Assembly: GCF_014199435.1 (NCBI RefSeq)
Contig: NZ_JACIJP010000001.1
Location: forward strand, 124,001 to 188,000
Source: Sphingobium subterraneum
GTDB taxonomy: Bacteria; Pseudomonadota; Alphaproteobacteria; Sphingomonadales; Sphingomonadaceae
Direction of reading: 5' to 3'
Length of the DNA stretch: 64,000 nt
Shown: piece after piece, positions 31,693-36,540 of the stretch
How the letters are laid out: each line of letters starts with the position of its first letter
Position numbering within the stretch: position 1 is the first letter of the stretch
Made by a program: the position numbers and the translations under genes
The notes under the pieces: model-generated
What the model was told of the DNA's origin: nothing
What the model saw: the letters and a program-made list of their open reading frames with translations, nothing else
The model's database searches: none

Positions 31693-33738
31693 TTACTGAT
31701 CCAGGAAACTGCGCATCTTGCGGCTGCGGCTGGGGTGCTTCAGTTTGCGGAGCGCCTTGGCCTCGATCTGACGGATACGTTCGCGGGTCACGCTGAACTG
31801 CTGCCCGACTTCCTCCAGCGTGTGATCGGTGTTCATGCCGATGCCGAAGCGCATGCGTAGCACGCGTTCCTCGCGCGGGGTGAGGGAAGCAAGAACGCGC
31901 GTGACGGTTTCCTTGAGGTTCGCCTGAATGGCCGCATCCACAGGAATGATCGCGTTCTTGTCCTCGATGAAATCGCCGAGGTGCGAATCCTCCTCGTCGC
32001 CGATCGGCGTTTCGAGCGAGATCGGCTCCTTGGCGATCTTCATCACCTTGCGGACCTTTTCGAGCGGCATGGAGAGACGCTCGGCCATTTCTTCTGGCGT
32101 CGGCTCGCGACCCTGCTCGTGCAGGAACTGGCGGGAGGTGCGCACCAGCTTGTTGATCGTCTCAATCATATGCACCGGAATACGGATGGTGCGGGCCTGA
32201 TCGGCGATCGAGCGGGTGATCGCCTGCCGGATCCACCAGGTCGCGTAGGTGCTGAACTTGTAGCCGCGGCGATACTCGAACTTGTCGACCGCCTTCATCA
32301 GGCCGATGTTACCTTCCTGAATAAGATCAAGGAATTGCAGGCCGCGGTTCGTATATTTTTTAGCAATGGAAATCACAAGGCGCAGGTTCGCCTCAACCAT
32401 TTCCTTCTTCGCGATGCGGGCCTCGCGCTCGCCCTTCTGCACCATGTTGACAATGCGGCGGAACTCGCTGAGCGACATGCCGGTGGCCTGTGCGATTTCG
32501 GCGACCTCGTTGCGGATACGGTCGACTGCGCGCGCTTCGTTGGTGGCGAAGGCCGTCCACTTCTTGTCGATCGAACCGACACGCTCCAACCAGCCCTCAT
32601 CAAGCTCGTGGTTCACATAGTGATCGAGGAAGTCCTTGCGAGGCACCTTGTGCCGTTCGGCGAGGCGCAGCATCTGACCACCCAGCGTCGTCAGGCGCCG
32701 GTTGTAGCTGTAGAGCTGATCGACCAGATATTCGATTTTCTGCTGGTGGAACTGCACGCTCTCCACCTCGGCGGTCAGGTCTTCGCGCAGCTGCTGATAG
32801 TCGTTTTCGGCTTTTTCGCTGAACGCATCGCCATTGGCCATGGCGGTAAGGCGCGCTTCCTGTGCCTTGGAGAAGTTGAAGAAAATCTGCGTGATGGTCG
32901 CGAATTTCTCCAGCGCCATCGGCTTGAGGGTTTCTTCCATCTGGGCGAGGGAGAGTGTGTTGTCTTCCTCGTCATCTTCCTCGACACGGGGCGCGCGGCG
33001 CTCCGTCATCGACTCCTCGTCTTCGTCCTCGTCGGCGGCGGCTTCTTCCGGTTCTTCCTCTTCCTTGAAGCTCGGACCGGCGGTTTTTTCGCTGATCTCG
33101 CCGTCATCATCCTCGGCGCCTTCCTCCAGGCTCTCCGGGGCAGGGTCCTTGGACAGCATCGCATCCAGATCGAGGATCTCGCGCAGCTGCATCTCGCCAT
33201 TGTTGAGGGCGGTCGACCATTCGATGATGGCGTTAAAGGTCGTGGGGCTTTCGCACAGGCCCAGGATCATGGTGTCGCGACCGGCCTCGATCCGCTTGGC
33301 GATGGCGATTTCGCCCTCGCGGCTCAGCAGCTCGACCGCGCCCATTTCGCGCAGGTACATGCGCACGGGATCGTCGGTGCGATCGACCGTTTCCTTCTTC
33401 TTTTCCTGCGTCAGCCGTTCGCCGGTATCCGTGCCGTCATCATCGACGGCGTCGACCGCATCGACTTCCTCTTCGCGAGTATCTTCGCCGTCTTCGCCGG
33501 CTTCGTCATTTTCGACGATGTTCACACCCATGTCATTCAAGGCTGACATAACATCCTCGATCTGCTCGGAGGACATCTGGTCCTGCGGCAGGGCGGAATT
33601 CAGTTCGTCATAGGTGATGTAGCCGCGCTTGGTCGCCCGCGCGATCAGCTTTTTGACCGACGCCTCGTTGAGATCGAGCAGCGGAGCATCTCCGCTGTCG
33701 ATGTCTTCACCTGCGCCTTTATTTGCCTTGCTCGCCAT
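31693..33738 (-). CDS. rpoD: RNA polymerase primary sigma factor (sigma-70)
   Basis: The 681-residue protein has region 1.1 (residues about 20-70), a long acidic non-conserved region rich in Glu/Asp (about 205-265), region 2 with [17 protein letters not shown] and the 2.4 helix, region 3 and region 4 with the helix-turn-helix ([20 protein letters not shown]). It directs housekeeping transcription. It is the last gene of the yqeY-dnaG-rpoD operon, 33 bases after dnaG. Confidence 0.98.
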
Positions 33739-33771: not shown

Positions 33772-35640
33772 TTAAGCGGCCAGCAGTTGTTCTTCAATAT
33801 TCGCCTTCAACGCCATAACCCGTTCATCGTTCTGGCGTTTTTGCGCCAGAAGGGCCTGTCGTTGGTCCCAGTCTTCCGAACTGATCCAGCTTTCGTCGCC
33901 CTGCGCATAAAGCGCGCTTTCGTGCCGTGCAAGCTGCGCTGTCAATTCCTGTTCGAATCGGAGTATCTCTATCACTTCGACAAGATCCTGTTCCGCCATC
34001 GTCGGGTCCGCCCCGGGCCGGAAAAAGGAAAAGCCGAGATCGTGCTGGATGTTCCGACGTTCGATTGGGCCAAGCGAGCTATCTGCCAATATGGCGTCGA
34101 GCAGGTTTTCTTCAAGGGCAGGCCGTTCAAAAGACGCGCGAATGAGCAGGTTTTTCCACTCTGTAAGGGTCGCCGTGGGCATATGCAGCGCGACGATCTG
34201 TTCCCGGTGCGAATAGAGGATCTGGGGCAGACGAGACAGACCAAGCAGGATGGCCCGGTGCGTCATCCGCTCCACCCGCTGCGATATGGTGGCGAGCTTC
34301 GGACTGACTTCCTCCAGCGACCGCGCAATGAAGCCGCGCACCGCATTCCGCTCGCTCTTGCGCCAGCCCCACCCGAACTCCAAGAAGAAGCGGTCCTGCA
34401 CCGCCTTGCCATATTCCTTGCGCACCAGGGGATCGGCAATGGTCGCAACCTGATCGTTGAGGCGCTGTTGCAGCCCGGCGCGGGCTTCGGGCGTATCGAT
34501 CGACCCGGCCTCGCGTTCATGTTGCCACAAGCGTTCGACCAGCGGTTTGGCGCCCTTGAGGCAGGCCTCGAACGCCTTTGCGCCCTTGCCGCGCACCATG
34601 TCGTCCGGGTCTTGCCCCTGCGGCAATGTCACGAAACTCAGGCTGTGGCCGGGACGCAGCATCGGGAGCGCGCGGAGCGCAGCACGGTCGGCAGCGCGGA
34701 TCCCGGCGCTGTCGCCATCGAAACAGAGTATCGGCACGTCGACCATCTTCCACAGCCGCTCGATCTGGTGCTCGGTGAGCGCGGTGCCGAGCGGGGCGAC
34801 GCATTCGTGGATGCCCGCCTGCGCAAGTGCGATCACGTCCATATAGCCCTCGACCACGATGACGCGCCCGGCCTGCCGAGCGGCGGGCAAAGCCTTGTCG
34901 ATATTATAGAGGGTGCGCCCCTTGTCGAAGAGCGGCGTGTCAGGAGAGTTGAGATATTTCGGCTCACCGGCGCCCAGAATGCGCCCGCCAAACGCGATCA
35001 CACGCCCGCGCGCATCGCGGATCGGGATCATCAACCGGCCCCGGAAGCGGTCATAGGGATCGCGTGCCTTGCCGCCATCGACTTCCGGCTGGATCAGCAT
35101 GCCGGTTTCGACCAGCATCGGATCGCCGAATTCCTTGAGCGCGCCGCGCAGCTTGCCGCGCGAATCAGGTGCAAAGCCGATACCGAACGCCTTGCGGGTC
35201 GCTTCGGACAGGCCGCGCTTGTCGAGATAGGCGCGCGCTTCCGCCCCTTCGATGCCCCCAAGCTGCTCCACGAACCAGTTCTGCGCGGCGGCCATCGCGT
35301 CGTGCAGACCACGCGCAGTCTCCGCCTTTTTCGCGGCGCGCGGATCGGGCGCGGGCACGTCCAGCCCGGCGGCCAGAGCCAGCTCCTTCACCGCATCCAT
35401 GAACGGCAGGCCCCGCTGCTCGGTCATCCAGCGGATCGCATCGCCATGCGCGCCGCAGCCAAAGCAGTGGTAGAAGCCCTTTTCGTCGTTGATTGTGAAG
35501 CTGGGCGTCTTCTCGTTGTGGAAGGGGCAGCATGCCTTATACTCGCGCCCCGCCTTGGTCACCTTTACGCTCTTGCCGATGAGCGTCGACAACGGCGTCC
35601 GCGCGCGCAGCTCATCCAGGAATTGCGGGGAGAGGGACAC
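33772..35640 (-). CDS. dnaG: DNA primase
   Basis: DnaG makes RNA primers at the replication fork. The 622-residue protein has the N-terminal CHC2 zinc ribbon (C38-x2-H41 and C59-x2-C62), a TOPRIM domain with VEGYMD near residue 264 and CFDGDSAG near 305, and a C-terminal helicase-binding region. The start is GTG 35640. Its ribosome-binding site (GGGAGGGG) lies inside the left terminal repeat of the DUF559 cassette, whose stop codon is three bases upstream, so primase initiation now depends on element sequence. Confidence 0.97.
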   Translation of the reverse strand: MSLSPQFLDELRARTPLSTLIGKSVKVTKAGREYKACCPFHNEKTPSFTINDEKGFYHCFGCGAHGDAIRWMTEQRGLPFMDAVKELALAAGLDVPAPDPRAAKKAETARGLHDAMAAAQNWFVEQLGGIEGAEARAYLDKRGLSEATRKAFGIGFAPDSRGKLRGALKEFGDPMLVETGMLIQPEVDGGKARDPYDRFRGRLMIPIRDARGRVIAFGGRILGAGEPKYLNSPDTPLFDKGRTLYNIDKALPAARQAGRVIVVEGYMDVIALAQAGIHECVAPLGTALTEHQIERLWKMVDVPILCFDGDSAGIRAADRAALRALPMLRPGHSLSFVTLPQGQDPDDMVRGKGAKAFEACLKGAKPLVERLWQHEREAGSIDTPEARAGLQQRLNDQVATIADPLVRKEYGKAVQDRFFLEFGWGWRKSERNAVRGFIARSLEEVSPKLATISQRVERMTHRAILLGLSRLPQILYSHREQIVALHMPTATLTEWKNLLIRASFERPALEENLLDAILADSSLGPIERRNIQHDLGFSFFRPGADPTMAEQDLVEVIEILRFEQELTAQLARHESALYAQGDESWISSEDWDQRQALLAQKRQNDERVMALKANIEEQLLAA

Positions 35641-35643
35641 CTC

Positions 35644-36042
35644 TTAAAGCCCCTCCCTTCCAAGGGAGGGGGTGGGGTGGGTGATCTTGCGCCGCTCCGG
35701 CATCACAGCCGCTATCGAAAGGATATGATCCACGACACCATCCACGTTGGTCATCACGTCGGCATTGCCGAACCTGACCACTGTATACCCATTTTCCGTA
35801 AGGTGGGTATCCCTGTTCCTGTCCCGCTCGGCGTCATGTTCGTCCCCATCCAGCTCAACGATCAGCCCGTTGAACGGGCAGAGAAAGTCAACAATGAAGG
35901 GGTCAATCACAGCCTGCCGTCGAAATTTAAGGCCGGTTTGGGAAGCCCGAAGGCGATTCCACAGGCGGCGTTCGGGTTCTCCGGGGTTGCCGCGAAGGTT
36001 GCGAGCAAGCGCGCCGAGATCTGAATCGATTCGCTTTGCCAT
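35644..36042 (-). CDS. DUF559 (Vsr-like) endonuclease-fold protein carried by a repeat-bounded cassette
   Basis: The 132-residue protein matches DUF559, a PD-(D/E)xK relative of very-short-patch repair endonucleases. Visible are E23RRLWNRLR, KFRRQ at 39-43, VDFLC (D52) and VELDGDEHD (E64, D66), followed by RDTHLTENGY and VVRFGNADV. ATG 36042 is preferred to a GTG at 36051. The ribosome-binding site (GGGGTGGGT) is formed by the right terminal repeat, and the last residues (HPTPSLGREGL) are translated from the left terminal repeat. Gene and repeats thus behave as one unit inserted between yqeY and dnaG. Confidence 0.85.
   Translation of the reverse strand: MAKRIDSDLGALARNLRGNPGEPERRLWNRLRASQTGLKFRRQAVIDPFIVDFLCPFNGLIVELDGDEHDAERDRNRDTHLTENGYTVVRFGNADVMTNVDGVVDHILSIAAVMPERRKITHPTPSLGREGL
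35646..35682 (+). repeat. Left 37-base terminal repeat of the DUF559 cassette
   Basis: Begins AAAGCCCC and ends GGTGGGT. It contains the hairpin CCCCTCCCTT-CC-AAGGGAGGGG (10-base stem). It is an inverted copy of 36046-36082 with one mismatch (G at 35672). It overlaps the DUF559 stop and carries the dnaG ribosome-binding site. Confidence 0.95.
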
Positions 36043-36045
36043 TTG

Positions 36046-36082
36046 ACCCACCCCAACCCCTCCCTTGGAAGGGAGGGGCTTT
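36046..36082 (-). repeat. Right 37-base terminal repeat of the DUF559 cassette
   Basis: Inverted copy of 35646-35682 with one mismatch. It holds the hairpin CCCCTCCCTT-GG-AAGGGAGGGG as read on the plus strand. Its inner GGGGTGGGT, read on the minus strand, lies a few bases before the DUF559 ATG and acts as its ribosome-binding site. The repeat starts six bases past the yqeY stop. Confidence 0.95.
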
Positions 36083-36087
36083 TATGT

Positions 36088-36540
36088 TCACCCCAGCGCA
36101 GCTTTCACCAATCCGCTCGCCTTGCTCATGTCGATCACGGTGCCGTGGCGTTCCTTGAGCACCGCCATTACCTTGCCCATGTCTTTGAGGCTGGCCGCGC
36201 CGATCTCCGTCTTGATTCCCTCGATCGCGGCGCGGGTGTCGTCCTCGCTCATCTGCTGCGGCAGGAAGCCCTCGATCACGTCGAGCTCGGCCTGTTCCTT
36301 CGCGGCGAGTTCCGCCCGGCCGCCCGCTTCGTACATGCTGATCGATTCGCGGCGCTGCTTGACCATTTTTTGCAGCACATCGACCACGATCGCGTCATCC
36401 TCCGGCACCTGGGACGCGGTGCGCAGTTCGATGTCGCGGTCCTTCAGCTTCGCGAGGATCAGGCGGACGGCGGCGAGGCGCTCCTTGTTTCCGGCCTTCA
36501 TCGCCTCAATCTGCGCGGCTTTCAGTGCGTCGCGAATCAT
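36088..36540 (-). CDS. yqeY: GatB/YqeY domain protein
   Basis: The 150-residue helical protein matches YqeY: MIRDALKAAQIEAMKAGNKER, RLILAKLKDRDIE, and the late LPQQMSEDDTRAAI and GKVMAVLKERHG, similar to the tail domain of GatB that contacts tRNA. Its cellular role is unclear, but it is often next to dnaG and rpoD in the macromolecular-synthesis operon, as here. The DUF559 cassette has been inserted between it and dnaG. Confidence 0.93.
   Translation of the reverse strand: MIRDALKAAQIEAMKAGNKERLAAVRLILAKLKDRDIELRTASQVPEDDAIVVDVLQKMVKQRRESISMYEAGGRAELAAKEQAELDVIEGFLPQQMSEDDTRAAIEGIKTEIGAASLKDMGKVMAVLKERHGTVIDMSKASGLVKAALG

Follow-up and report, generated by a model that had tools for sequence, protein, structure and literature searches.

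Repetitive extragenic palindromic (REP) units of REP-associated tyrosine transposases (RAYTs) are defined by an enzyme gene that has inverted palindromic repeats on both sides (PMC2817692); the REP tag has been defined as GTAG or CGTC at the palindrome (PMC3733652), and inverted repeat pairs without a gene are the layout of the REPINs (REP doublets forming hairpins) of RAYT systems (PMC3116915, PMC2817692), as described in the portions of these papers drawn on here. DUF559 is still listed by Pfam as a family of unknown function; according to PMC12907096, a Caulobacter member, VsrA, is connected with the SOS response and with methylation of cytosine. Here we describe a 437-bp element (35646..36082) that encloses a DUF559 gene and separates yqeY from dnaG in Sphingobium subterraneum, located in a stretch of 64,000 nucleotides (contig NZ_JACIJP010000001.1, positions 124,001 to 188,000; hereafter the window). 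The reading we favor, without regarding it as secure, is that of a nuclease-based REP-type element, in which a DUF559 nuclease spreads its own class of repeat by cutting and host repair.

The cassette and its predicted nuclease

The cassette is bounded by two 37-nt arms that are inverted copies of each other (36/37 bases, 97% match). The left terminal repeat arm (35646..35682; unstranded) lies on the 3' side of the gene and consists of a hairpin and an inward G-run tail; the right arm (36046..36082; unstranded) lies on the 5' side. Both fold, with the left-arm hairpin at 35649..35672 (+ strand) and the right-arm hairpin at 36056..36079 (- strand), each having a stem of about 10 bp and a 4-nt loop (-11.3 and -10.6 kcal/mol; z -2.5 and -1.8, respectively). 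Four G-runs, a G-quadruplex-type motif as read from the sequence, lead into the cassette from the left end (35664..35681, + strand), and four from the opposite end (36047..36064, - strand). With up to 3 mismatches allowed, the two arms are the sole matches to the palindrome pattern in the window, and 100 dinucleotide shuffles gave none; GTAG and CGTC are absent from both strands of both arms, and Rfam gave no match at gathering score.

The gene between the arms (35644..36051, - strand; GTG start, 135 amino acids) has its final codons inside the left arm. Its product matched Pfam DUF559 (E 4e-30) and otherwise only REase_MTES_1575, below threshold; the top fold matches were 3hrl (NGO0050), I-Bth0305I, and Vsr. 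Residues D55, E66, H72, and D77 are invariant across 14 sequences, in keeping with the conserved acidic residues of such an active site, and may well be catalytic. Profile and fold matches alike point to a DUF559/Vsr-like PD-(D/E)xK nuclease and not to a Y1 HUH tyrosine transposase. The initial annotation had described ends that are inverted copies at 36 of 37 bases, a hairpin with a 10-base stem in each, and a single Vsr-like DUF559 gene between them, encoding a PD-(D/E)xK nuclease relative instead of a Y1 transposase; all of this holds. DUF559 has no partner gene in the cassette, PADLOC returned only a marginal match (DpdF, E 0.0013), and no cytosine methyltransferase was found among the identified neighbors (rpoD, dnaG, yqeY, carA, carB).

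Repeats around DUF559 and GIY-YIG genes in other genomes

The comparison covered 61 genomes, the S. subterraneum genome and 60 relatives. DUF559 was present in 43 of them, at 144 places by row count, 11 of which (short, broken, and contig-end matches) were left out as cassette loci. An inverted repeat of score at least 15, no more than 200 bp from the DUF559 domain, was found at 89 of the first 111 loci, compared with 0/110 for the same geometry placed 450 bp further out and 78/555 when arms were paired across different loci. After the addition of 20 loci, which stand outside the tree and the context count given below, the figure is 105/131; the initial annotation was to be given up if the repeat never occurred near other DUF559 genes, and most of the others examined do have inverted repeats on their flanks. 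The stem of the 5' hairpin has 7 or more perfect pairs at 99/105 loci (27 distinct stem sequences; far-stretch control, 8/105), and the open reading frame (ORF) ends inside or past the 3' hairpin at 86/97. A strict G-run motif faces inward at both ends of 60/105 loci and is present at the 5' end of 65/105 (opposite strand there, 3; far stretch, 2).

In a tree of 111 DUF559 domains, judged by eye and built from a short alignment that leaves many forks open, repeat class shifts with clade. Where a genome has at least two cassettes (34 genomes), the arms of a cassette are each other's best match when set against the arms of the other cassettes at 105/126 loci. The palindromes CCCTCTCCC(N0-10)GGGAGAGGG and CCCCTCCC(N0-10)GGGAGGGG reach up to 50 and 125 copies per genome, respectively (reversed controls, 0-2). 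The S. subterraneum genome has 3 exact palindromes, including both arms, plus a few degraded copies; a degraded gene-less pair was also seen there by eye (L034). Copy number was tested for class D alone: its 13 carriers have 1-22 copies beyond the exact ones in the cassette locus itself, versus 0-6 in 24 non-carriers of the same genera (p 4e-6, kinship ignored; 8e-6 without genome G028, scored as a carrier by its arms, its protein falling in a neighboring clade).

Many of the hairpins belong to inverted pairs that have ends of the cassette kind and contain no gene; such pairs occur in five relatives (G007, G019, G023, G030, and G016). Among 50 of the 52 sites in G030 there are 16 pairs spaced 50-150 bp (expected, 0.04), seven of them at exactly 98 bp; among 25 of the 42 sites in G016 there are 8, four at 98 bp. 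Class-F gene-less pairs L231, L233, L235-L237, L243, and L244 have a further stretch of about 20-25 bases in common beyond both hairpins (total length about 165 bp), so that the copied unit exceeds the two arms. Another recurrent junction is the region upstream of the gene starting ATGGCACTGCATTTCGAACTCGT, presumably atpC, with a single repeat in S. subterraneum (L035) and a gene-less pair of another class in G019 (L205).

A genome scan yielded 13 named loci, of which 11 score at least 15 (controls 1/13, that of L164). These include Methylobacter, Zooshikella, the planctomycetes Stieleria and a Gemmataceae metagenome-assembled genome (MAG), and one Ktedonobacteria genome with two loci; the score of Ktedonobacteria locus L164 is unreliable, its shifted control having reached 43. 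Below the threshold were the Kryptoniota locus and one alphaproteobacterial MAG. Of the loci from a plasmid collection, 7/12 score at least 15, including Deinococcus (47, 53) and Pseudanabaena (40).

GIY-YIG genes of the relatives (L271-L300) were also flanked by inverted repeats of score at least 15, at 22/30 loci (shifted control 0/29, one locus giving no control); these loci are the best match per genome and not a random sample, and four are interrupted by contig ends, with coordinates assumed. The CCGTTCG type accounts for many of the repeats and the GTCATTCCCGCG type for some. A GIY-YIG gene within inverted CCGTTCGTCCTGAGTAG-type repeats (score 25) in S. subterraneum, at G000:C3:33570-33782 (L318, about 1071-1283), is a second kind of nuclease cassette in that genome.

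Movement, the yqeY-dnaG junction, and rival explanations

The cassette separates yqeY (36088..36540, - strand), the operon gene upstream, from dnaG (33772..35640, - strand), whose GTG start lies 3 nt beyond the DUF559 stop codon; rpoD follows (31693..33738, - strand). A sample of 30 yqeY-dnaG junctions, that of S. subterraneum included, has DUF559 at 15, with three repeat classes (A, 4; B, 6; C, 5), and a GIY-YIG gene at 7, one of them truncated. The GIY-YIG genes have a different repeat, its exact pattern being present in both orientations at 3/7 and as one copy at 2/7. Six junctions are without a cassette, as judged by eye, and three of these six have a gap of 15 nt that includes the yqeY stop codon, which confirms that the two genes can adjoin directly. 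The gap in G022 retains one palindrome with no gene match, a GIY-YIG match having been sought there without result; in G032 (L047) an 880-nt gap has content without assignment. An identical cassette at this locus in all relatives, with no other repeat copies, had been named as a reason to abandon the initial annotation; the content of the junction differs among the 30 genomes.

The cassette of the window belongs to class C, and since the same class stands at the same site in G005, G016, G030, and G031, it was likely inherited from a common ancestor. A single origin of all DUF559 cassettes at yqeY-dnaG (16 rows, quick tree) was weakly rejected (approximately unbiased test, p 0.044), so that at least two arrivals are likely, though not certain. 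Sphingomonas parapaucimobilis YK209 also has the order yqeY-DUF559-dnaG, with further cassettes between sufB and sufC and among the pnt genes.

With a context taken as detectable flank similarity within 1 kb, the 10 loci of clade F fall into 7 contexts and the 8 of clade G into 6. Some close relatives have a gene-less pair where others lack it: L238 occurs in both G030 and G018, is down to a single hairpin in G022, and is absent from G016; L247 is present in G030, G018, and G022 and absent from G016; L250 is present in G030 and G018 and absent from G022. One gene junction holds a class-F pair in G016 and a class-D pair in G030. No clean target duplication was found at the gene-less pairs. A clean empty site for the clade-G locus L017 was considered and rejected, G030, G018, and G022 holding other sequence there. 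By eye, a further clade-G cassette lies between phage portal-like and terminase-like genes (L015, in G007); a phage collection searched for cassettes with empty relatives gave just 2 weak matches. Deinococcus proteolyticus has a cassette, oriented on the opposite strand, between hpaB and a gene for an oxidoreductase; it is decayed in D. wulumuqiensis and absent from D. radiodurans, D. ficus, and D. deserti. A second Deinococcus cassette splits paaD-paaZ in D. psychrotolerans and not in strain QL22. The flanks of the Azospirillum lipoferum cassette matched different places, among the matches listed.

The interpretation of the cassette as a nuclease-based REP-type element builds on its anatomy, the match of class and clade, the gene-less pairs, the class-D copies in relation to the clade, and presence or absence at junctions, which are directly established. 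The predicted Vsr-fold nuclease likely recognizes its own repeat class; it would bind and cut the hairpin or G-run end, the break would be repaired by the host with a repeat copy as template, and gene-less pairs would be moved in trans. To our knowledge, strand joining would not be expected of a PD-(D/E)xK nuclease on its own. Several observations weigh against this interpretation. Scores are below 15 at 26/131 DUF559 loci and at 5/12 plasmid-collection loci (Synechocystis, Photobacterium, Sinorhizobium, PCC 7002, and E. coli), and 3/3 further Azospirillum loci have no inverted repeat of score at least 15. The match of class and clade is not one to one because clades A, B, and E use one stem type, CCCCTCCCGC. 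The copy-number test spans one class and ignores relatedness, and class-D copies occur without the matching nuclease in G013 (6) and G015 (5). One context is kept by 8/11 clades and clade H has two contexts in nine loci, so that, by the context counts of the 11 clades, only F and G look mobile; the two clade-F pairs tested gave ratios of nonsynonymous to synonymous change (dN/dS) of 0.85 and 1.24, on few changes. Neither a target duplication nor a base-exact junction was found at the compared sites, where a few surrounding bases differ as well.

The main competing explanation is that the repeats are moved by a transposase, for example a RAYT, encoded at another place in these genomes. DUF559 would then be a hitchhiker or a domesticated Vsr-like repair gene, the role proposed for Caulobacter VsrA, and its repeats would be moved in trans by an unrelated transposase; the reported connection of VsrA with methylation and SOS (PMC12907096) speaks for this view. 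The dN/dS values suit such a gene (16 pairs run, a ratio obtained for 13, and 11 of these at 0.07-0.32; the DUF559 gene of the window is too distant from its class-C relatives for a ratio), as does the single genomic context of eight clades. We nevertheless think it unlikely, given that repeat class tracks DUF559 clade, also within single genomes, that class-D copy number tracks the matching clade, and that the ORF ends inside or past the 3' hairpin at most loci. True strand-transfer transposition, with the nuclease excising and inserting a hairpin-ended single strand in the manner proposed for RAYT and IS200-IS605 enzymes, would account for a layout equal to that of RAYT units and REPINs (PMC2817692, PMC3116915), and the lack of a visible target duplication would not count against it, none being expected from IS200/IS605-type movement in the account given in PMC2817692. 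The cassette is without a partner gene, which argues against this mechanism. We also know of no strand-transfer chemistry for the Vsr/PD-(D/E)xK fold, and the mechanism appears improbable.

Stable hairpins near the dnaG start, and several cassettes between operon genes, could also be understood as regulation of the operon, the hairpins slowing transcription or shaping the mRNA between yqeY and dnaG, with the gene as a passenger. The junction is just 15 nt long in 3/30 genomes and has unrelated cassettes in others, and Rfam gave no match at gathering score; the chances of this explanation are correspondingly slight. For chance or an assembly artefact no supporting point was found, and the empty shuffles, the shifted windows (0/110), and the recurrence of this class at the junction in four further genomes make it negligible.

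The initial annotation had proposed a self-contained mobile or domesticated element. That proposal is supported in so far as the relatives differ at the locus and repeats flank most DUF559 genes; present-day movement of the copy in the window is not supported, and the copy looks old, because the same class occupies the same site in four relatives and only three exact palindromes are present. Old and low in copy number, the cassette is probably not moving here and is probably inactive or kept as a single-copy gene. A broader proposal, put forward tentatively and with the balance slightly against it, is that many of the palindromic intergenic repeats that abound in bacteria and lack a known transposase are made by DUF559 or GIY-YIG cassettes with their own hairpins, spread by cut-and-repair, recurrently at the same operon junctions; they would form a second realm of REP-type elements, driven by nucleases.

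Relation to REP elements and Vsr-like nucleases

Among the open-licence papers listed in literature searches, no title or abstract opening joins DUF559 to flanking repeats, and earlier work beyond open licence is possible. Should DUF559 act on its own repeats, a group of so far unexplained repeat families of bacteria would have a candidate maker, and the REP-type mode of spread would have more than one origin, in enzyme classes unrelated to each other. The cassettes of classes D and F offer test cases, each supplying a defined gene and repeat together with copies free of the gene.

The likeness to a REP element with an enzyme gene, pointed out at the start, is confirmed by the inverted palindromic repeats that flank the gene. 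As in REP/RAYT systems and REPINs, inverted palindromic repeats enclose an enzyme gene, repeats are dispersed and also form inverted pairs without a gene (here in relatives), and no target duplication is seen. Unlike in REP/RAYT, the enzyme is a predicted Vsr-like PD-(D/E)xK nuclease and not a Y1 HUH transposase, the arms have inward G-run tails and no GTAG/CGTC tag, and similar DUF559 cassettes extend to planctomycetes, to Deinococcus, and, among three loci of cyanobacteria, to one. The cassette is not placed in REP/RAYT because it lacks both a Y1 transposase and a tag of the GTAG type. NGO0050 (PDB 3hrl) is among the top fold matches of the DUF559 protein. To I-Bth0305I, a Vsr-like homing endonuclease, the resemblance is one of fold only; here the gene is enclosed by inverted repeats of its own, which are also present at places without the gene. 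Caulobacter VsrA and E. coli Vsr differ in turn from the cassette, which has no cytosine methyltransferase among its identified neighbors and has repeats at both of its ends, which suggests a role as a mobile element.
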